From: Candidatus Hydrothermarchaeum profundi
GTDB taxonomy: Archaea; Hydrothermarchaeota; Hydrothermarchaeia; Hydrothermarchaeales; Hydrothermarchaeaceae
Length of the DNA stretch: 9,945 nt
Direction: 5' to 3'
NCBI GenBank assembly: GCA_002011125.2
Contig: MTMF02000016.1
Span: 1-9,945, forward strand
Shown here: in pieces, positions 1 through 9,945 of the stretch
How positions within the stretch are numbered: the stretch's first letter is position 1
How the letters are laid out: every line of letters starts with the position of its first letter
Notes under the pieces: model-generated
Seen by the model: the letters and a program-made list of their open reading frames with translations, nothing else
Databases searched by the model: none
Told to the model about the DNA's origin: nothing
Translations under genes and position numbers: made by a program

Positions 1-698
1 TTCTGCCGCTTAAGCTGAGGCACCTGAGTTTTGACCACTACGGCGCCGTGCTCAGGGTTACCGGCAAGACCGGCGACAGGAGAATACGCCTGGTAGCCTC
101 TACCTTAGCGTTGCAGCGCTGGATAGAGGAGCACCCCGCAAAGAACAACCCCGACGCCTTCCTGTGGTGCAAGATTCCAACGCCCAACAACCCAAAGTGG
201 AAGAATCACCACCTGAGCTACGGTTTTGTCAGTCGCCTGCTGAAGGAGCTGGCAGCAAAGGCAGGGGTAAAGAAGAAGGTTAATCCTCATGCCTTCAGGC
301 ATGCTAGGGCTACCTTCCTGGCGAGGCATTTAAAGGAGCCTGAGATGCGGGAGTTCTTCGGCTGGGGCAAGGATTCAGAGATGCCCTCCATCTACGTCCA
401 CCTCAGCGGTAGAGACGTGGATAGCAGCGTCCTCAGCATCTACGGCATCAAGGATACGAGCAAAGCCGCTGAACCCAAGCTAAAAGCTGAGCAGTGCCCA
501 AGATGCAGAGAACCCAACGACCCTGCAAGCAGGTTCTGCCGCAGGTGCGGCCTGCCCCTCGGCAAGTTCTACAACGTCGACAAGCTCGAGGATGTGCTGC
601 TCGAGTTCCTGAAGGTGATCGCAGAAACATTCCCTGAGGTAAAGGAGAAGTTCAGGGAGGTGGTAAGAAGAAAGGGAGCGGAGGAGGTGTTTATGTGA
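1..698 (+). CDS. Tyrosine recombinase/integrase with C-terminal zinc ribbon (5'-truncated by window edge)
   Basis: C-terminal part of a phage-type integrase/XerC-D-like tyrosine recombinase, which cuts and rejoins DNA through a 3'-phosphotyrosine. The frame is open to the left edge (codons from position 3), and residues before the GTG at 48 still fit the family (LRHLSFDHYGAVLRVTGKTG), so 48 is not the true start. Counting from the codon at 48: the beta-hairpin lysine is K7, the HxxR box is H81-A-F-R84, and the nucleophile is probably Y116 in PSIYVHLSG. The usual second His/Trp position is W106 in FFGWG. The first catalytic Arg lies outside the window. After the catalytic domain comes a CxxC-x10-CxxC zinc ribbon (C150, C153, C164, C167) and a charged helix, an arrangement I associate with archaeal integrases. 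Codon choice is clearly GC-richer than in the genes to the right. It may mobilise an integrated element or be a resident recombinase. Its target site is not visible. Confidence 0.88.
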   Translation, partial: LPLKLRHLSFDHYGAVLRVTGKTGDRRIRLVASTLALQRWIEEHPAKNNPDAFLWCKIPTPNNPKWKNHHLSYGFVSRLLKELAAKAGVKKKVNPHAFRHARATFLARHLKEPEMREFFGWGKDSEMPSIYVHLSGRDVDSSVLSIYGIKDTSKAAEPKLKAEQCPRCREPNDPASRFCRRCGLPLGKFYNVDKLEDVLLEFLKVIAETFPEVKEKFREVVRRKGAEEVFM

Positions 699-1384: not shown

Positions 1385-3871
1385 ATGCTCAATGAAGCTG
1401 ACACACGAGCAAAGCTTATAGATCCAGAACTTTGGAAAAGTGGATGGGACGAAAGTAAGATAAAAAGAGATATCTACATTCCCGGCAAAATTATAGATGA
1501 AAATGGGAGGAGACAAAGACCTAAGAAGCCTGACTATGTTCTCTATTACAACCCCTACCTTCCAATAGCTGTGGTTGAGGCTAAAGAAGAAGGAAAATCC
1601 GCCTTAGATGGCATGGCACAGGCAAAGGAGTACGCCAAAAGATTGGGTGTTTTCTTTGCCTACTCCACAAATGGGCATGAAATAGAAGAGTTTGATTTTA
1701 CAACAAATATTCAGAGAACTATTGAGAGATTTCCAACACCAGAAGAGCTATACAAAAGATATTCCGAATTTGTCTTTAAACAGGAGACAAAAGTAGACCC
1801 ATTGAAATACCCTTATTACTCAGTACCGGGTGGGAAAAAGCCAAGATACTACCAAGAGGCGGCAATAAAGCGAGCTATTGAAGCAATTCTTCAGGGAAAA
1901 AAGAGAGTACTTCTAACAATGGCAACAGGCACAGGAAAAACTTTTGTCGCCTTTCAGATAGTTTGGAAGCTTTTGAATTCCGGCTACTTCCAGAGGGTTC
2001 TATATATTGCAGACAGAAACTTTCTCCGAGATCAGGCTTACAACGAATTCGCCCCCTTTGAAGATGCCAGAGCAATTATAGAGGAGGGCAACGCCCCCAA
2101 GAACAGGCAGGTTTACTTCAGCATATACCAAGCCCTCTACAGCGGCGACGAAGAAAAGAGACTCTATCGAGAGTATCCACCTGACTTTTTTGACATGGTT
2201 ATTATCGACGAGTGCCACCGATCTGGTTATGGCACGTGGAAGGAAATCCTCGACTACTTTGGAGATGCAGTACACCTCGGAATGACGGCTACGCCTAAGA
2301 GGAGCGACAACATAGACACCTACGCCTACTTTGGTAAGCCTGTGTATTCCTACAGCATGGGACAGGGAATTGAGGACGGCTTTCTTGCACCTTTCCATAT
2401 TTACCGCATCTTTACAAATATAGACAAAAAGGGTTTGCACTTGGAAGAGGCCCTTCACCAAGGTGCCAGAGTTTATATTCCTGAGGAGACGGATGTGAGG
2501 GACATCTATACACTTGAGAACTTTGAAAGGGAGATTATTCTACCGGACAGAACAAAGAAGATATGCCAGCATCTGGCGAGCCTCCTCGACAAGTTTGGAC
2601 CCTTGGAGAAAACCATTGTCTTCTGTGTTAATAGGGAGCATGCCGCACAGGTTGCCAAGGAGTTACAGAACAGCTTTGCCCATCTTGGTTACTCTGACTA
2701 TGCTGTTAGAATAGTGGCTGAGGAGAGCGATGTTAAGGAAGTTTATGAGAATTTTAAGGACTCTGAGAAAACTACCCCTGTGGTGGCAACAACTGTAGAC
2801 CTCCTAACAACGGGTGTTGATATCCCCTCAGTTAAAAATCTGGTTTTTCTGAAGCCTATAAGCTCCAAGGTTTACTTTAAGCAGCACATTGGCAGAGGTT
2901 CAAGAATAGATAAGGTTTCAAAGAAGTACTTTTTCAGGATAATAGATTATGTAAATGCGACACGCCTGCTTGATGACTGGGATTATCCCTCCGATGTGGG
3001 AGGTGCAGTAGAGGTAGAAGGCCCCTTCGACCTTGAGCTTAGGGGATTTGTGCTGCATTCTGAGACCAATGAGCCTATAGATTCAGCTACAATTAAAGCC
3101 CAGATAGCACCCAATATGCAGAGGCTTGCCAAAAGCGATGGTAGGGGTTATTTCGTGCTGGACAGGTTGCCCTGCTTTTCCATTACTCTGGTAATTTCCA
3201 AATATGGCTTCAGAACCAGGCGGGTGACCATTACCCCAAGCGAAGATATGGAGCCAATCATTGTCGAGCTTAAGCCTGAGAAGCCTAAGAGGAAGAAGAT
3301 AGTTGCAGAAGGAGTTGAGGTTTATATTGCAGAGGAGACTCAGGTCTTTATATCTTCTTCTGGAAAGACGCTGACAGACGCAGAATATAAAGAGTATTCA
3401 AAGGAGGGAGTTATCAAAAGGGTTGCCACTCTCGGAGACTTTTACAAGCTGTGGATTGATAGGGAGAAAAGGAGGAAGTTTTTGGAGGAGTTGTACAAGG
3501 AATCTATAAACCCTGAGCTTCTTGCAAATATTCTCAAAGCACCTGATGCAGATGCCTTTGATGTTCTCGCGCATGTTGCCTTTGGTGCTCCTATTTTGAC
3601 GAGAGATGAAAGGGCGAGAGCTTTTATGAACAAGAAAAAGAAAGTAATAGAAGCTCTGGGAGGCAAAGCCCAGGAAGTTGTGCTCTCTCTTCTGGAGAAG
3701 TACAAAGCAGGAGGTATTGAGCAGATTACAAGCCCAGATATATTCGAGGTGTCGCCTTTCGACAAGATGGGTTACCTCCGTGGTGTGGCTGAGATTTTTG
3801 GCGGTATTGATAAGCTTAAGGAGGCAATAGAGCTTATAGAGAAGGGAATCTACGAGAGCGTGGAGGTGTAG
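1385..3871 (+). CDS. hsdR: Type I restriction enzyme, endonuclease/translocase subunit HsdR (EcoAI/EcoEI-like)
   Basis: Motor and nuclease subunit of a type I R-M complex: it translocates DNA with ATP and cuts unmodified DNA far from the recognition site. Numbering from the ATG at 1385 (828 aa): an N-terminal PD-(D/E)XK nuclease shows D50 and E65-A-K67; Walker A is ATGTGKT at 180-186; the DEAD-like box is DECH at 275-278; motif III is TAT at 301-303; motif VI is QHIGRGSR at 500-507. A C-terminal domain resembling the EcoEI R-subunit C-terminus begins near residue 640. Residues about 549-630 form a probable carboxypeptidase-regulatory-like insert, listed separately. I chose ATG 1385 because MLNEADTRAKLIDPELW matches the usual family N-terminus; GTG at 1376 or 1379 would add two or three residues. 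It is first in an operon with hsdM, 4 bases away, and the hsdM ribosome site lies in its last codons. All key motifs are intact, so it should be active. Confidence 0.95.
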   Translation: MLNEADTRAKLIDPELWKSGWDESKIKRDIYIPGKIIDENGRRQRPKKPDYVLYYNPYLPIAVVEAKEEGKSALDGMAQAKEYAKRLGVFFAYSTNGHEIEEFDFTTNIQRTIERFPTPEELYKRYSEFVFKQETKVDPLKYPYYSVPGGKKPRYYQEAAIKRAIEAILQGKKRVLLTMATGTGKTFVAFQIVWKLLNSGYFQRVLYIADRNFLRDQAYNEFAPFEDARAIIEEGNAPKNRQVYFSIYQALYSGDEEKRLYREYPPDFFDMVIIDECHRSGYGTWKEILDYFGDAVHLGMTATPKRSDNIDTYAYFGKPVYSYSMGQGIEDGFLAPFHIYRIFTNIDKKGLHLEEALHQGARVYIPEETDVRDIYTLENFEREIILPDRTKKICQHLASLLDKFGPLEKTIVFCVNREHAAQVAKELQNSFAHLGYSDYAVRIVAEESDVKEVYENFKDSEKTTPVVATTVDLLTTGVDIPSVKNLVFLKPISSKVYFKQHIGRGSRIDKVSKKYFFRIIDYVNATRLLDDWDYPSDVGGAVEVEGPFDLELRGFVLHSETNEPIDSATIKAQIAPNMQRLAKSDGRGYFVLDRLPCFSITLVISKYGFRTRRVTITPSEDMEPIIVELKPEKPKRKKIVAEGVEVYIAEETQVFISSSGKTLTDAEYKEYSKEGVIKRVATLGDFYKLWIDREKRRKFLEELYKESINPELLANILKAPDADAFDVLAHVAFGAPILTRDERARAFMNKKKKVIEALGGKAQEVVLSLLEKYKAGGIEQITSPDIFEVSPFDKMGYLRGVAEIFGGIDKLKEAIELIEKGIYESVEV
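3029..3274 (+). other. Predicted carboxypeptidase-regulatory-like (Ig-fold) domain within HsdR
   Basis: Residues about 549-630 of HsdR carry the pattern of a CarboxypepD_reg beta-sandwich: LRGFVLHSETNEPIDSATI, then S-D-G-R-G-Y-F-V-L-D-R-L and later V-I-S-K-Y-G-F-R-T with a closing VELKPEKP strand. It lies between the end of the helicase core (YFFRIIDYVNATRLLD) and the C-terminal domain (IVAEGVEVYIAEE). The fold is usually found in secreted or surface proteins and, as far as I know, is not part of canonical HsdR. It might bind protein or DNA partners. The call rests on motif recognition, not on a search. Confidence 0.6.
3862..3868 (+). promoter_or_regulatory. hsdM: Shine-Dalgarno site that fixes the hsdM TTG start
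   Basis: GGAGGTG lies within the last codons of hsdR, 7 bases before the TTG at 3876. No ATG or GTG is nearby, and the product from this TTG (MNRRDLASKIWRACDIMRSD) matches the HsdM N-terminus, so the rare start is supported. Confidence 0.75.
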
Positions 3872-3875
3872 TTTT

Positions 3876-5393
3876 TTGAATCGCAGAGACCTTGCCAGTA
3901 AGATATGGAGAGCCTGCGACATAATGAGGAGCGATGATGGCACAACGGGCATTCTTGAGTACATGGAGCAGCTTTCATGGATGATTTTCCTCAAGGTGTT
4001 TGAGGATGTAGAGAGGAGGTTTGAAGACAAGGCTCTGTTTGAGGGAAAGCCCTACTCTCCGATTATAGAACCCCGGTTTAGATGGTCTTCGTGGGCAACC
4101 AAGGATGACAGAGAACTTGAGGAGTACTTCACCGATGAAGAGCTCAGAAACATGAGGGCAACAAATGAGCATATTTTAATTGCCTTCATTGACAGAAAGC
4201 TCTTTCCCTATCTAAAATCACTGAGAGGTTCTCCTGAGAGGGAGAGGATTGCGAGCATCTTTCAGGAGTTTCGCGGGAATAGGATGAAATCTCCCTACAA
4301 TTTGAGGGATGTAATCTCCCTCCTGAATGATATCGACTTCTACAATCCCGAGGATTCCCATGTGCTCTCTCAGGTATATGAAGAGCTTCTAATACGCATG
4401 GGCAGAGAGGGCGGGGTTGCCGGCGAATTTTACACCCCGAGACCTATTGTAAGGCTGATGGTTAAGATTGTAAATCCGCAGATTGGTGAGAGGGTTTTTG
4501 ACCCCTTCTGCGGCTCCTGCGGTTTTATTGTTGAGTCCTACAATCACATGAAGGAATCTAAGGAGCTGCTGATTGAAGACCACAGAACTCTCCAGAAGGA
4601 AACCTTCTATGGACAGGAGAAGAAGCCTCTGCCCTACTTAATAGGTGTGATGAACTGCCTGCTGCATGGACTGCTTACCCCTAACATAGTCAGAAAGAAC
4701 ACCTTGGAGGAGAATATAAGGAATATCCCTGAGAGTGAGAGGTATGATGTAATTTTAACCAATCCCCCCTTCGGCGGAAAAGAGGGCAAGCATATAAAGC
4801 AAAACTTCCCCTACCCTTCGAGCAAGACTGAGATTTTAGCCCTGCAGTATGTGATGAAGAAGCTCAAGAAGGGTGGTAGATGCGGAATTGTTGTGCCCGA
4901 AGGCATTCTCTTCAACATCTCAGAGAAAGCCTTTGTCAAAACCAAGAAGGACTTGCTGGAAAACTACAACCTCCACACAATTATAAGCCTTCCTCAGGGT
5001 GTATTCGCCAATGTAACTTCCACAGGACAGGGACCCAAGACTAATCTACTTTTCTTTGACAGAGATGGCCCCACCAAGGAAATCTGGTACTACGACTTTG
5101 CAGGCTACTCTGAAGCTGTGCTTGGAAAGAAGTACACAAAGGCAAACCCCGTTATTTACGAAGATTTGAAGGATGCCTTTGAAAAGTGGGAGAAGAGGGA
5201 AATCTCAGAGTGGTCGTGGATTACGCCAGTAGAGGAGATAGTTGAAAACGACTACGACCTCACAGCGAGGAATCCAAACAGGAAAGAGGAAATAAGCTAC
5301 AGGGAGCCTATAGAAATAGTTGAAAGCATATCCACCAAAGAAGAAGAAATTTCAAGAATTCTGAATGAGCTGAGTGCAATTCTAAGAGGCTGA
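3876..5393 (+). CDS. hsdM: Type I restriction enzyme, DNA methyltransferase subunit HsdM (N6-adenine)
   Basis: Methyltransferase subunit: transfers a methyl group from S-adenosylmethionine to adenine N6 at the site chosen by HsdS, and is also needed for restriction. The 505-aa product starts at TTG 3876. The N-terminal HsdM_N helical domain spans about 1-160 (ILEYMEQLSWMIFLKVFEDVE). The catalytic domain carries GEFYTPRPIVRLMV (183-196), the SAM-binding motif I D209-P-F-C-G-S-C-G-F217, and the gamma-class catalytic motif N296-P-P-F299 in VILTNPPFGG. The C-terminal tail (about 475-505) is a charged helix likely to contact HsdS. Motif I is slightly unusual: most relatives read C-G-[ST]-G-G-F, whereas here a Cys replaces the first Gly of the GG pair. 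It lies 4 bases after hsdR and 4 bases before hsdS. Length is ordinary for the family. Confidence 0.95.
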   Translation: MNRRDLASKIWRACDIMRSDDGTTGILEYMEQLSWMIFLKVFEDVERRFEDKALFEGKPYSPIIEPRFRWSSWATKDDRELEEYFTDEELRNMRATNEHILIAFIDRKLFPYLKSLRGSPERERIASIFQEFRGNRMKSPYNLRDVISLLNDIDFYNPEDSHVLSQVYEELLIRMGREGGVAGEFYTPRPIVRLMVKIVNPQIGERVFDPFCGSCGFIVESYNHMKESKELLIEDHRTLQKETFYGQEKKPLPYLIGVMNCLLHGLLTPNIVRKNTLEENIRNIPESERYDVILTNPPFGGKEGKHIKQNFPYPSSKTEILALQYVMKKLKKGGRCGIVVPEGILFNISEKAFVKTKKDLLENYNLHTIISLPQGVFANVTSTGQGPKTNLLFFDRDGPTKEIWYYDFAGYSEAVLGKKYTKANPVIYEDLKDAFEKWEKREISEWSWITPVEEIVENDYDLTARNPNRKEEISYREPIEIVESISTKEEEISRILNELSAILRG

Positions 5394-5397
5394 GCAA

Positions 5398-6672
5398 ATG
5401 GTTCAGACAAAATTGATTGAGTTCAAATCCACTGGAAAACAGGATAATTATGAAATCAGAGAAATGAGGGGTCCCTATCCTCTGCCAAAGGGGTGGAAGT
5501 GGGTGAGGTTAGGGGATGTAGCTTATACCACGAGTGGTGGAACTCCTAGTAGGTCTAATAAAAAATACTGGCAAAATGGAAACATTCCTTGGGTAAAGTC
5601 TGGAGAACTTGAGGATAATATAATTTATGATACAGAAGAAAAAATTACTGAAATTGGTTTAAAAAATTCAAACTGTAAGATTTTTCCTAAGGGCACATTA
5701 TTGGTAGCAATGTACGGGGCAACTGTAGGCAAAACAGCAATTTTAGGCATTGACGCAGCTACTAATCAAGCAGTATGTGCAATTTTCCCTAATAACATAA
5801 TTAATAGAGACTATATTAGATATTATCTGGTTTTTATCAGACCAAAACTTATAGAAAGAAGCAAAAATTTAGGTGGTGCTCAACCCAATATAAGTCAAGA
5901 ATTTATAAAATCCCTAAAAATCCCCATCCCCTTCCACAACGGCAAACCAGACCTCCAAGAACAAAAACGCATCGTGGCGAAAATTGAAGCCCTATTCCAA
6001 AAGCTGGACAGAGTAAAAGAGCTGAGACGCCAAGCCAAGAAAGAGGCTGAGGAGCTTTTACAGGCGGCGTTGCACAAGGTGTTTTCGAGGGCTGATGAAA
6101 AAGGTTGGAAGTGGGTGAGGTTGGGGGATGTAGCCGAGATAATTATGGGACAATCTCCACCTTCTGAAACTTATAATGATAATGGAGAAGGTTTACCATT
6201 CTATCAGGGAAAGGTAGATTTTGGCGATCTTTATCCAAGTCCAAGGATTTATTGCACATCTCCGAGTAGGGTTGCTGAGCCTCATGATATATTAATTTCA
6301 GTTAGAGCCCCAGTAGGTCCTGTAAACATTGCTAATCAGCAGTGTGGTATTGGAAGAGGTTTAGCAGCTATAAGACCTAAAAATTTGAAAAGTTTCTATG
6401 TGTTTTATTGGTTTAAATATCTCGAAGATAAGTGGAATGTTGGAGGAACAACTTTTGGGGCAATAAAGAAGCCGGATCTTATAAATCACAAACTCCCCAT
6501 TCCCTTCCGCAATGGCAAACCCGACCTCGAAGAACAAAAACGCATAGTTGCTTATCTTGATGAGATTGCGGAAAAGCAGAGGAAACTTTTAAAACTCTAT
6601 GAAGATACTGAGAGAGAGATTGAGGAGATGAGGCAGGCGATATTGAATAAGGCATTTAGGGGGGAATTGTGA
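5398..6672 (+). CDS. hsdS: Type I restriction enzyme, specificity subunit HsdS with two target-recognition domains
   Basis: Specificity subunit that selects the bipartite DNA target and bridges the methyltransferase and nuclease subunits. The 424-aa product has two half-subunits. TRD1 spans about 29-178, from PLPKGWKWVRLGDVAYTTSG to IPIPF, followed by a conserved helix (LQEQKRIVAKIEALF to about 228). TRD2 spans about 233-371, from EKGWKWVRLGDVAEIIMG to LPIPF, followed by the second helix (LEEQKRIVAYLDEI) and the usual ending QAILNKAFRGEL. The two helices form the antiparallel spacer that sets the gap between half-sites. The TRD cores are visibly more AT-rich than the conserved parts, which is typical of swapped TRDs. 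The start is ATG 5398, with AGAGG about 9 bases upstream. The stop codon overlaps the Argonaute start. The recognition sequence cannot be read from the protein by eye. Confidence 0.95.
   Translation: MVQTKLIEFKSTGKQDNYEIREMRGPYPLPKGWKWVRLGDVAYTTSGGTPSRSNKKYWQNGNIPWVKSGELEDNIIYDTEEKITEIGLKNSNCKIFPKGTLLVAMYGATVGKTAILGIDAATNQAVCAIFPNNIINRDYIRYYLVFIRPKLIERSKNLGGAQPNISQEFIKSLKIPIPFHNGKPDLQEQKRIVAKIEALFQKLDRVKELRRQAKKEAEELLQAALHKVFSRADEKGWKWVRLGDVAEIIMGQSPPSETYNDNGEGLPFYQGKVDFGDLYPSPRIYCTSPSRVAEPHDILISVRAPVGPVNIANQQCGIGRGLAAIRPKNLKSFYVFYWFKYLEDKWNVGGTTFGAIKKPDLINHKLPIPFRNGKPDLEEQKRIVAYLDEIAEKQRKLLKLYEDTEREIEEMRQAILNKAFRGEL
5491..5522 (+). repeat. HsdS conserved-segment repeat A, copy 1 (entry to TRD1)
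   Basis: This 32-base stretch encodes GWKWVRLGDVA at the start of TRD1. It matches 6103-6134 at 30 of 32 bases. Confidence 0.85.
5921..5972 (+). repeat. HsdS conserved-segment repeat B, copy 1 (exit of TRD1)
   Basis: This 52-base stretch encodes the PIPFHNGKPDLQEQKR region that leaves TRD1 and begins the first helix. It matches 6494-6545 at 47 of 52 bases. Confidence 0.85.
6103..6134 (+). repeat. HsdS conserved-segment repeat A, copy 2 (entry to TRD2)
   Basis: Second copy of the 32-base stretch at 5491-5522, at the start of TRD2, with two mismatches. The near-identity at DNA level allows recombination between half-genes. Confidence 0.85.
6494..6545 (+). repeat. HsdS conserved-segment repeat B, copy 2 (exit of TRD2)
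   Basis: Second copy of the 52-base stretch at 5921-5972 with five mismatches. Repeats A and B bracket each TRD, so a TRD can be exchanged as a cassette by homologous recombination. Confidence 0.85.
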
Positions 6673-8594
6673 TGATAGAGAATGGAATTTATGCAAGAAA
6701 TATGATAAGACTTAATTTTTTGCCACTTTCGGAGCAAAATTTTGAATTTAAAGTATATAGAAAAAAACATGCGGGTGAAAGAAAAGAGGGCGAGTTTGAA
6801 AATTTATATCTAAATACACTACCAATTGATCCGAACAAAACCGAAGATCGTGAAAAATATTGGATTTCTTTTGAACCAAAAAATGATTTTGAAGAATTTA
6901 TATGCAAACAAGACCATAATCATAAACTTACGCAACATTTGTTATTCTCTCTGTTGACAAAGAAAGCAAAGGAATCTTTAGCGAGTAAGGAATATATCAT
7001 ACCAGAAAAAATATTTAGAAGGCAGATTTATTTTGTATTGAGAGAACACAAAGAAGGAAAAGAGACAGTATGGCTAGAACCATATTATCTAAAGCCAAAA
7101 AGGAAATTTGGTTTCCTTGTAGATTTTAAATTTCGCAAAAATCCTGAAGTTGAATTCTCAAGAGTAGTCCAAATGTTGAGTCTCAGTCTAGATAAAGATT
7201 TTAGAAGTAATCGAAATTTTTACATAGATAAATATCAGAAAATCAGAGAATTTTTAAATAAATTCAGAGATAAAATCTTTCCTCTTAAATTCGGAGAATT
7301 AGAAATTGATATTTTAGTAGATTTTGAAGATTTACCATATGGTAATTTAGATATTAAGAACTATATATTCGCTAATAACAATAAGGAAATTTCGCAATAT
7401 CGTGGATTAGAGAAATATGGTCCTTTAGAGGAAGTGAAAAAAGATGTAATATTTGTTTGTATTTATAGAGATGAAGATAGATATCTTTTAGATGATTTAA
7501 TCAATGCATTAAATGGAAAATCGCATATAGTCCCATTTAAGGGTGTTAAAAGAATATTCAATCTAAATGTAACAGATACTGTATATATCCCACTTCACGA
7601 TTTTTCCAAAGAAAGTTTAGATGAAGCAATAAATAGTATAATCTCTATTAAACAAGAAAATAATAGTGTTTTGGTGATGCCTATTTTCATAATGGATAAA
7701 AATGATGAAGACACTTACTATTATTTAAAATATATGTTACTTAACGAAAATATGCCAATTCAGGTGGTAACTGTAGATCTTCTTAGGAGGAGGAGTGCCT
7801 TTAAATGGTCTATTTCTAATATTGCTTTACAAATTTTTGCTAAGCTTGGTGGAAAACCATGGCAGGTATTACCAAGTCATAAAGACTCTATTATTTTAGG
7901 TATTGGACAGGCACATAAAAAAATTGGAGATAAGATTGTAAAATATTTTGCATATTCAGTTTGTACTGATTCTAGCGGTATATACAAAAAAATAGATGTA
8001 CTTGGAAAGTCTGATGACGAAAAAAGTTATTTAGAGCAACTAAGAGAGAATATTCTAGATGTTATTGAAGAGAATATAAATGGTAGTCATAAAAAAATTA
8101 TTTTGCATATACCGTTTAAAATAAAAAAGAATGAGTTGGAAACGATTAATGGAGCATTAAAAGAAATAGCAAGTCAAAATAACAGCGATATAGATTTTGT
8201 TGTATTAAAGGTGAATCAGAAAAATAAATTCTTTGGTTACGCTTATACAAATAGTTTAGTTCCTTATGAAAGCTCATATGTTGTATTATCAAACAATCCA
8301 AAAGAATATTTAGTATGGTTTGAAGGTTTACAATATCATCGAGAAACTATTTATAAAAGGATACCAGGACCCATCCACATAGAATTTTATTGGAGCAATA
8401 GGAAACTTACTGAAGATGAACGAATAAAATATCTACAAGATGTTTTAAATTTATCTGGAGCAAATTGGAGAGGATTCAATGCAAAAAACTTGCCAATATC
8501 AATTTATTATTGTCAATTAATAGCCAATTTTCTGAAAAAGTTTCCTGAAGATGTAGAAAATATAGAACATATACCAGCGCCGTGGTTCCTATAG
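6672..8594 (+). CDS. Prokaryotic Argonaute, AfAgo-like/long-B type, PAZ-less and predicted catalytically inactive
   Basis: Guide-binding Argonaute, expected to load a short nucleic-acid guide and recognise invader nucleic acid. Numbering from ATG 6672 (640 aa). Residues about 1-245 look like N/L1/L2 sequence (FRRQIYFVLREH, FGFLVDFKFRKN, VVQMLSLSLDKDFRSN). RGLEKYGPLEE leads into MID (about 250-400) and PIWI (about 400-640, ending APWFL). Compared from memory with A. fulgidus AfAgo, the 5'-phosphate pocket Y123/K127/Q137/K163 aligns with Y349, K353, Q364 and K391 (in AKLGGKPW). The first PIWI aspartate is lost: the strand reads ILGIGQAH, like AfAgo IIGTGATR. The second-Asp strand reads ILHIPFKI, also without Asp, so slicing is not expected. 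ANWRGFNAKNLPISI and the C-terminal Leu are conserved. No PAZ is evident, and the length roughly equals AfAgo plus its separate N-L1-L2 partner fused. The start forms TGATG with the hsdS stop; GTG 6669 would add one residue. Codon use is much more AT-rich than hsdRMS. Confidence 0.88.
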   Translation: MIENGIYARNMIRLNFLPLSEQNFEFKVYRKKHAGERKEGEFENLYLNTLPIDPNKTEDREKYWISFEPKNDFEEFICKQDHNHKLTQHLLFSLLTKKAKESLASKEYIIPEKIFRRQIYFVLREHKEGKETVWLEPYYLKPKRKFGFLVDFKFRKNPEVEFSRVVQMLSLSLDKDFRSNRNFYIDKYQKIREFLNKFRDKIFPLKFGELEIDILVDFEDLPYGNLDIKNYIFANNNKEISQYRGLEKYGPLEEVKKDVIFVCIYRDEDRYLLDDLINALNGKSHIVPFKGVKRIFNLNVTDTVYIPLHDFSKESLDEAINSIISIKQENNSVLVMPIFIMDKNDEDTYYYLKYMLLNENMPIQVVTVDLLRRRSAFKWSISNIALQIFAKLGGKPWQVLPSHKDSIILGIGQAHKKIGDKIVKYFAYSVCTDSSGIYKKIDVLGKSDDEKSYLEQLRENILDVIEENINGSHKKIILHIPFKIKKNELETINGALKEIASQNNSDIDFVVLKVNQKNKFFGYAYTNSLVPYESSYVVLSNNPKEYLVWFEGLQYHRETIYKRIPGPIHIEFYWSNRKLTEDERIKYLQDVLNLSGANWRGFNAKNLPISIYYCQLIANFLKKFPEDVENIEHIPAPWFL

Positions 8595-8606: not shown

Positions 8607-9608
8607 GTGTTTAGAGAAGATGAGATAATAATTCTAATCGGCGCAGGATGTAGCGCAGATGCGGGAATACCAACATCTACACAAATGGTGAAAAAAGTTG
8701 AAAATCTTATAAAAAATAATAGAGAATGGGAAAAATATATTGATATATTTAATTACGTCAAAAGTGCTATTTTATATGTAGACGGAATAAAAGGAAGTTT
8801 TGGAAATAATTTTGACATTGAAAGACTAGTTAATGTTCTTGGTGAATTAGAGAAGAAAGAAAACAGCATTTTATATCCATTTATTGGAAGTTGGAGCCCA
8901 AGATTATTAGAAATTGCTGGCTATGATTTCGGTATTATCAGAGAATTTAAACAAAAAATATTAAAAGAATTAACAAAATGGGTTCGTAAATCTAATTATT
9001 ATAGGAAGTTTTTTGAATTTGCCCGTGAGTATACATATCCATTAAGAATTTTCTCTTTGAATTATGATATTTGCATTGAAAAAAATAAGCCATCTGGAAT
9101 AGATCTTGAAAGAGGTTTTGATCCAGAAACAAAAACTTGGGATTGGAGGAGATTCGAACGTAGTGAAGTATATGAACCTGCAATCTATTTGTACAAACTT
9201 CATGGTTCTATTGATTGGAAAAGGGACAAAAAGGAAGGCAATATCCTGAAAGAAGTTGATAGAATTCCAGAAGAACCGGATCTAATTTTCGGTACCGACT
9301 ATAAAATGCAATATGTTGATCCTTATTTATTTTATGCATATGAATTTAGAAAATATTCCTTAGAAGCTAGAGTTATTATTATAATCGGATATAGCTTTGG
9401 GGATGAGCATATAAACAGTATATTAAAGCAGGCACTCGATAATAGAAATGATCGAAAATTGTTAATAGTTTCCCCAAGAATAGATGAAGACTATATTGTA
9501 AGTAGATTACATTGTAACGATAAAAAACAAGTTATTGTCGTGAATAAAAGAGCTAGTGAGTTTCTAAATGAATTACATATAGAAACTCTAGAAAATTGGT
9601 TAAACTAA
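8607..9608 (+). CDS. SIR2-family NAD+-hydrolase effector paired with the Argonaute
   Basis: SIR2_2-type protein of 333 aa, expected to hydrolyse NAD+ when activated and so stop growth of an infected cell. The N-terminus enters the Rossmann fold at once: IIILIGAGCSADAGIPTS, with the GAGxS signature at 12-16. FSLNYD (149-154) supplies the catalytic Asn N152 and D154. YKLHGSIDW (196-204) supplies the catalytic His H199. IIIIGYSFGDEHINSIL (257-273) is the C-terminal nucleotide-binding motif. All residues needed for NADase activity in defence SIR2 proteins such as ThsA or SPARSA appear present. Unlike SIR2-APAZ proteins, it is little longer than one SIR2 domain and shows no APAZ, fitting a partner Argonaute that already has its own N/L domains. 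It is 12 bases after the Argonaute stop, shares its AT-rich codon use and is surely co-transcribed. A target other than NAD+ cannot be excluded. Confidence 0.9.
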   Translation: MFREDEIIILIGAGCSADAGIPTSTQMVKKVENLIKNNREWEKYIDIFNYVKSAILYVDGIKGSFGNNFDIERLVNVLGELEKKENSILYPFIGSWSPRLLEIAGYDFGIIREFKQKILKELTKWVRKSNYYRKFFEFAREYTYPLRIFSLNYDICIEKNKPSGIDLERGFDPETKTWDWRRFERSEVYEPAIYLYKLHGSIDWKRDKKEGNILKEVDRIPEEPDLIFGTDYKMQYVDPYLFYAYEFRKYSLEARVIIIIGYSFGDEHINSILKQALDNRNDRKLLIVSPRIDEDYIVSRLHCNDKKQVIVVNKRASEFLNELHIETLENWLN

Positions 9609-9671: not shown

Positions 9672-9711
9672 GAGCAAGCGATATTGAGTAAGGCATTTAA
9701 GGGAGTTGTGA
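9672..9711 (+). pseudogene. Relic of a second hsdS 3' end
   Basis: Bases 9674-9711 align with the last 40 bases of hsdS (6633-6672) at 34 positions, with 4 mismatches and one 2-base gap. In the matching frame it reads EQAILSKAFKG, against RQAILNKAFRG in the intact HsdS. The expected GEL-stop is broken by the 2-base deletion, so the frame continues as VVRLLLLNFRG to a later stop. Nothing upstream of about 9670 resembles HsdS. It is therefore a fragment of another hsdS, or of a duplication made when the Argonaute-SIR2 block arrived. Confidence 0.7.
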
Positions 9712-9732
9712 GATTATTGTTGCTTAATTTTA

Positions 9733-9745: not shown

Positions 9746-9945
9746 ATGTCCACTAATAAAAAATGGAACAGATTAATTGAAGTTATGGGTAAAGCTAGTT
9801 TGTTATTCTTAATTGTTTTACTAATTGATGTAGGTTCAACTATCCCATACTACTACCTTTATGCAAAAAAACATGGCTCTGATAAAATTCCAGAAACTGC
9901 AAATAAAATAGTGGAAGGAATAAATGATGACGAACAAAAAGTTAG
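9746..9945 (+). CDS. Unknown protein with one N-terminal membrane helix (3'-truncated by window edge)
   Basis: I do not recognise this gene. The first 66 codons are visible, starting at ATG 9746 behind GGGGGA. The product begins with a short basic segment (MSTNKKWNRLIEVMGK). A hydrophobic helix follows at about 17-39 (ASLLFLIVLLIDVG, then STIPYYYLYAKKHG), and then a polar, charged stretch (SDKIPETANKIVEGINDDEQ). The helix and its positive N-terminal flank suggest a membrane-anchored protein, with the part after the helix probably outside by the positive-inside rule, though KKHG on the other side makes this uncertain. Composition is AT-rich, like the Argonaute-SIR2 pair. A 137-base gap from the SIR2 gene holds the hsdS relic, so it could be a separate unit or a further member of the defence cluster. 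Confidence 0.6.
   Translation, partial: MSTNKKWNRLIEVMGKASLLFLIVLLIDVGSTIPYYYLYAKKHGSDKIPETANKIVEGINDDEQKV

Follow-up and report, generated by a model that had tools for sequence, protein, structure and literature searches.

A contig of 9,945 bp from the archaeon Candidatus Hydrothermarchaeum profundi (MTMF02000016.1, analyzed whole and called the window below) carries a type I restriction-modification (R-M) operon, hsdR-hsdM-hsdS, followed directly by genes for a prokaryotic Argonaute (pAgo, here Ago) and a SIR2-domain protein. We think it likely that this Ago-SIR2 pair is a BPAS-type module that entered as a single unit and became attached to the hsdS 3' end of a resident archaeal type I operon, and that the R-M and Ago-SIR2 systems are co-expressed and act independently. 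The occurrence of HsdS in pAgo operons and the embedding of second defenses in type I operons were already known. The order R-M/Ago/effector, its recurrence across pAgo lineages, the swapping of R-M partners and the insertion scar described below were not found in the literature compared.

A BPAS-type pair behind a type I R-M operon

By Pfam and PADLOC, the type I gene set is complete: hsdR encodes the nuclease-motor subunit, hsdM the N6-adenine methyltransferase and hsdS a specificity subunit with two target-recognition domains (Table 1). The genes predict an intact R-M operon with both methylation and restriction activity. All five genes, hsdR to SIR2, are co-directional and head-to-tail, with gaps of 4 nt (hsdR/hsdM), 4 nt (hsdM/hsdS), -1 nt (hsdS/Ago) and 12 nt (Ago/SIR2), and a single five-gene operon is a fair reading of this layout.

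The best sequence match of the Ago in the PDB is AfAgo (1e-23). In its AlphaFold (AF2) model (pLDDT 86.7), residues 221-640 match the MID-PIWI region of AfAgo with a Z score of 29.8, and 577 residues align to RsAgo (759 residues) over the full chain, the model being ~120 residues shorter at 640. The protein is apparently a single-chain, long-B, AfAgo-like Argonaute, and it appears to be PAZ-less as judged from its length rather than from residue-by-residue mapping. The first catalytic Asp is replaced by Gly (GIGxAH motif) in the window Ago and its relatives, which predicts a catalytically inactive PIWI domain. The likeness to AfAgo and fAfAgo (Manakova et al. 2024, PMC10954474) thus takes in the MID-PIWI fold, the N-L1-L2 region, the absence of a PAZ-sized domain, the inactive PIWI and a downstream effector gene. 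However, the Argonaute is split in A. fulgidus and a single chain in the window, and the gene downstream encodes the helical Af1317 protein there and SIR2 here. Membership in SPARSA was considered and rejected, as there is no APAZ domain, the SIR2 domain stands alone in a 333-aa protein and the Ago carries its own N-L1-L2.

In the SIR2 protein the GAGxS motif, N152 and H199 are invariant in 14 sequences, and the fold comes closest to SIR2-HerA, followed by ThsA and the SPARSA SIR2; we predict an NADase with its catalytic residues intact. The closest functional precedent is GbBPAS (Song et al. 2023, PMC10620215), in which the SIR2 protein GbbAgaS kills when expressed alone, GbAgo suppresses it, and a plasmid sets off NAD+ loss that the N155A substitution abolishes. 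That residue is probably the equivalent of N152. In both systems an inactive long-B pAgo is followed directly by a SIR2_2 gene that retains the catalytic Asn, and the window genes are therefore best described as a predicted BPAS-type abortive-infection pair. They differ from GbBPAS in that the Ago is apparently PAZ-less and AfAgo-like and that the pair overlaps the hsdS of a type I operon; suppression of SIR2 by Ago and invader-triggered NAD+ depletion have been demonstrated for GbBPAS only (PMC10620215).

A composition break and a duplicated hsdS tail

At the hsdS/Ago junction the GC content drops from ~44% to 29%. The hsdRMS genes have 40-46% GC with a third-position value (GC3) of 0.35-0.56, and Ago and SIR2 have 28-30% GC with a GC3 of 0.20; two sampled stretches of the host chromosome have ~42% GC. 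Moreover, the last 40 nt of hsdS recur just past SIR2 as a displaced copy with a 2-nt deletion (Table 1). The two copies are 86% identical over 44 aligned columns, and the local alignment score of 50 compares with a maximum of 33 across 2,000 shuffles. Among 23 genomes of the phylum, the hsdS-tail pattern matched only these two copies, and a reversed-pattern control gave 0 matches. No relative of the Ago was found in 22 other genomes of the phylum, a small one. Given the composition break, the flanking tail copy and the lack of an Ago in these genomes, the pair appears to be a recent, modular addition joined at the hsdS end, with the second tail left as a scar. When the empty site was sought in relatives, none of the hsdM homologues in the phylum proved to be close (best 33%).

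None of 8 other hsdS loci with a pAgo contained such a duplication, and it was rejected as a general rule. A candidate third tail before the open reading frame (ORF) at 9746 (TTTAGGGGGAAATTCAGATG) was also rejected and judged a Shine-Dalgarno (SD)-like match. A bolder scheme treats the hsdS 3' end as a recurrent entry point, akin to the 3' ends of tRNA genes for integrases: incoming cassettes would each bring an hsdS-tail copy to restore HsdS, move the previous tail past their distal end and land coupled to R-M translation, with Ago-SIR2 as the newest cassette and the terminal ORF as an older one. We regard this as speculative and rather improbable.

The hsdS/Ago junction

A sequence-only reading of this DNA had noted that the hsdS stop and the Ago start overlap as TGATG, with a G-run just upstream inside hsdS. 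Both features are present: the codons share 1 nt, at 6672, and six Gs lie 7 nt before the ATG. TGATG overlaps are frequent in prokaryotes, and strict coupling was found in 13 of 14 overlapping gene pairs tested in an archaeon and in E. coli (PMC6728339). On these grounds translation of Ago is likely coupled to that of HsdS. The G-run is a possible SD sequence for Ago; as special evidence for coupling it was rejected, since it encodes the R-G of the HsdS tail KAFRGEL and so belongs to the FRGEL motif of the protein. Runs of at least five Gs occur in 2 of 28 hsdS tails, both preceding an Ago; the second is locus L054, from the Bacteroidota, a phylum in which SD use is rare. The 16S rRNA gene of the host (509 bits against the archaeal small-subunit model) reaches a contig end, so that its 3' end, with the anti-SD, lies off the sequence.

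Tight junctions of this kind are ordinary. All 27 hsdS genes with a follower had a same-strand next gene at -49 to +97 nt, in a sample made up mostly of loci picked for pAgo or CBASS. The unusual part is the identity of the following gene.

The same reading had Ago and SIR2 translated from the hsdRMS transcript under one promoter. A single promoter is not established: of the archaeal BRE/TATA-like sites in the window the highest-scoring one, GGAAACTTTTAAAA, lies inside the 3' end of hsdS and leaves an alternative. With a predicted transcription start at ~6615, it is positioned so as to drive Ago-SIR2 alone and is a possible promoter. Shuffling the 200 nt gave its score a P of 0.004, with a consensus that was written after the site had been seen.

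Recurrence and R-M partners in other genomes

Used as a single query, the window Ago retrieved no close relatives from the genome and viral collections. We therefore searched 84,980 genomes with a five-sequence alignment and fetched 80 loci, to which samples of 395 Bacteroidota genomes and 395 genomes from the phylum of a Syntrophobacterales match were added. The survey is modest, and R-M genes were called with phmmer and Pfam. Relatives of the Ago in phages and IMG/VR were not detected at the sensitivities used.

An hsdS gene lies immediately 5' of Ago-SIR2 in L031 (3 nt), L032 (-10 nt), L039 (14 nt) and L054 (15 nt to the ATG), and a fused HsdMS gene ends 41 nt before the pair in L161. The absence of the arrangement from related genomes, which would have counted against its significance, is thus not what the survey returned. 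In L247 (2154-8562; Desulfobacterota), hsdM-hsdS is followed after 27 nt by a split Ago (an N half of 277 aa and a MID-PIWI half of 481 aa) and a DpnII-MboI-type nuclease effector; this split system of another lineage is absent from our tree. Within the tree, the window Ago is distant from the BPAS clade, to which the other hsdS-adjacent loci belong, and the state of directly following hsdS needs at least three changes. An hsdS gene before a pAgo system recurs in at least three lineages. In the BPAS clade itself, 8 of 9 members follow an R-M gene, type I or Eco57I-like. An earlier study (Ryazansky et al. 2018, PMC6299218) had listed HsdS (og_11) as enriched in pAgo operons; analyses of gene order, gap, R-M type and partner swapping do not appear in the text consulted.

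In the closest relative of the window Ago (L010, 11933-16628; Syntrophobacterales, 55% identical) the order is reversed: Ago-SIR2 comes first, next a 406-aa protein of unknown function, and hsdM with a short hsdS lies downstream of these. In Anoxybacillus (L019/L020, 5231-11275) an Ago of the same family is interrupted by ~4 kb of inserted genes, with a CAP12/Pycsar-type TIR gene just upstream.

Among non-redundant pAgo loci, the co-directional run upstream included an R-M gene in 25 of 68 and the downstream run in 5 of 63 (p 1.2e-4); for SIR2-paired loci the figures were 12/25 and 4/28. Each locus's own genes were excluded from the query set, and the counts are a lower bound. As a control we took 37 CBASS loci (PF18144) from the same Bacteroidota sample, of which 9 had R-M upstream and 4 downstream. 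The upstream frequency is similar to that of pAgos (p 0.28), and a pAgo-specific R-M linkage was rejected. Only for hsdS immediately upstream was there a difference, a marginal one (5/25 pAgo-SIR2 loci against 1/37 for CBASS, p 0.035), and some other gene may come first in CBASS operons. CBASS CD-NTase genes of Bacteroidota often follow type I R-M operons or lie within them (control loci L203-L239, e.g. L204, L205 and L210), and in L204 and L210 hsdR is placed after the CBASS genes.

Long-B Agos swap R-M partners. The Agos of L049 and L059 are 87% identical and stand behind type III and type I R-M genes, respectively; those of L037 and L053 (90% identical) follow a type I system and a DUF499 gene, and those of L163 and L069 (77% identical) follow type I and type III systems.

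Co-expression or a dedicated machine

The sequence-only reading had gone on to propose a layered response, a dedicated machine in which R-M and Ago-SIR2 have co-evolved, HsdR cuts first and the Ago senses surviving DNA, loading guides from the degraded DNA. The operon layout, the recurrence of the order R-M, Ago, SIR2 in at least three lineages and the clade in which all but one member follows an R-M gene would suit such a machine. However, near-identical pAgos stand behind different R-M types (L049/L059, L037/L053), CBASS genes show a similar linkage to R-M genes, and the composition of Ago-SIR2 is foreign to the hsd genes. Moreover, the closest characterized relatives, fAfAgo and the long-B pAgos, use 5'-phosphorylated RNA guides against DNA (PMC10954474, PMC10620215), for which reason guides made from HsdR fragments are unlikely; the idea of an Argonaute fed by such fragments needs correcting. 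A dedicated layered machine is not indicated by these data and seems to us quite unlikely. Rather, the CBASS linkage, the partner swapping and the ordinariness of tight junctions favor co-location and co-expression.

Type I operons offer precedents for embedded defenses. PrrC, an anticodon nuclease encoded inside the EcoprrI operon, is an abortive effector held by its R-M enzyme and freed by the phage T4 protein Stp (PMC3874165, PMC2610378). By analogy, the R-M complex, directly or via its state, might silence the NADase, and phage anti-restriction proteins would trigger SIR2. In L031, L032 and L039 the order hsdS, Ago, SIR2 is followed by hsdR further downstream, as with prrC, and these are the only loci with the effector between hsdS and hsdR. 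In the window, though, hsdR is the first gene and precedes hsdM and hsdS, the effector follows the whole hsdR-M-S set, and the presumed sensor is a guided Ago rather than the R-M enzyme. Partners are swapped across R-M types, 13 of 25 pAgo-SIR2 loci have no detected upstream R-M neighbor, and in the known BPAS system Ago itself silences SIR2 without R-M (PMC10620215), all of which makes a guard of the PrrC kind highly doubtful. TgvAB (PMC11411939) is an independent two-gene defense inside a type I R-M operon that needs no hsdR activity to protect; it differs in being a GmrSD-like type IV restriction system and not an Ago-NADase.

If instead Ago-SIR2 runs off its own promoter in the hsdS 3' end, the two systems would be mere neighbors under independent regulation, with the start-stop overlap incidental to insertion. 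The site at 6581-6594 and the general clustering of defense genes, which the CBASS control extends to positions behind R-M, both lend this some weight; the exact overlap, the G-run at SD distance and the upstream/downstream asymmetry of R-M genes around pAgos argue the other way, and we hold it possible but unlikely. An assembly or binning artifact, a misplaced contig or one mis-joined at the junction, is extremely improbable. The window makes up one entire small contig in a 2.19-Mb assembly of 19 contigs, and its composition break is sharp, but the break falls on an exact stop-start overlap, and the same type of junction occurs in other assemblies. The contig also looks native to the host because the tetranucleotide use of the hsd genes fits it (0.80, within the control range) and because the partial integrase at its left end has two paralogues (72% and 79% identical) on the 1.9-Mb host contig.

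Acquisition as a unit followed by co-expression remains the account we prefer, and three points weigh against it. The internal promoter may reduce hsd read-through to a minor share; the retention of R-M upstream in most of the BPAS clade despite its changing type hints that the partner may matter beyond co-location; and the duplicated tail is seen at the window locus only, so that the joining mechanism rests on one scar.

Under the preferred account, Ago would be made at least partly from the hsd mRNA, as ribosomes finishing HsdS re-initiate at the overlapping start, and would be synthesized before its toxic partner SIR2. On invasion, the R-M enzyme would first destroy unmethylated DNA. Ago would keep SIR2 inactive until its RNA guide pairs with surviving invader DNA, whereupon released SIR2 would deplete NAD+ and the infected cell would stop. 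R-M and Ago-SIR2 probably act against the invader independently of each other, and operon position would provide co-expression, ordered synthesis and co-transfer rather than a physical HsdS-Ago machine. Two defense layers usually studied apart thus travel together and possibly switch on together. Placement of abortive-infection Argonautes behind restriction systems has recurred in at least three pAgo lineages, with the R-M type varying and the order R-M/Ago/effector kept. It thereby becomes testable whether a link by operon position serves restraint of the toxic partner, the timing of suicide after restriction or joint transfer alone.

Other features of the window

Table 1. Coordinates of the genes and sequence elements in the window
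Feature	Position	Strand	Description	Evidence
Integrase	3-698		Partial tyrosine integrase with C-terminal zinc ribbon	
hsdR	1385-3871	+	Type I restriction subunit, 828 aa; HSDR_N, SWI2/SNF2-ResIII motor, EcoEI_R_C	Pfam, PADLOC REase_I
hsdM	3876-5393	+	Type I N6-adenine methyltransferase, 505 aa; TTG start, GGAGGT Shine-Dalgarno	Pfam N6_Mtase 4e-60, HsdM_N
hsdS	5398-6672	+	Specificity subunit, 424 aa, two target-recognition domains	Pfam Methylase_S, two stretches
BRE/TATA-like site	6581-6594	+	GGAAACTTTTAAAA, best of window, within hsdS 3' end; possible Ago-SIR2 promoter	
hsdS tail, upstream copy	6633-6672	+	Last 40 nt of hsdS; codes QAILNKAFRGEL	
Six-G run	6659-6664	+	Possible Shine-Dalgarno for Ago, 7 nt before ATG	Sequence
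TGATG overlap	6670-6674	+	One-base overlap of hsdS stop TGA (6670-6672) with Ago ATG (6672-6674)	Sequence
pAgo	6672-8594	+	Argonaute, 640 aa, single-chain	PADLOC pAgo_II 712 bits
SIR2	8607-9608	+	SIR2_2 effector, 333 aa, predicted NADase	PADLOC Aga_SIR2 427 bits; PF13289 3.8e-12
hsdS tail, displaced copy	9674-9713	+	hsdS 3'-end copy with 2-nt deletion, just past SIR2; codes QAILSKAFKG	
ORF	9746-9945	+	AT-rich ORF start, 66 codons up to contig end; probable next cargo gene	

The integrase, whose paralogues lie on host contig C9, could act in trans to mobilize cassettes, and ~0.7 kb of non-coding DNA separates it from hsdR. Residues 552-633 of HsdR (window 3035-3285) form a carboxypeptidase-regulatory-like domain (CarboxypepD_reg) between the motor and EcoEI_R_C. 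For the terminal ORF the Pfam search returned nothing above the cut-off; its N-terminal part is hydrophobic, and it is possibly an older cargo gene.

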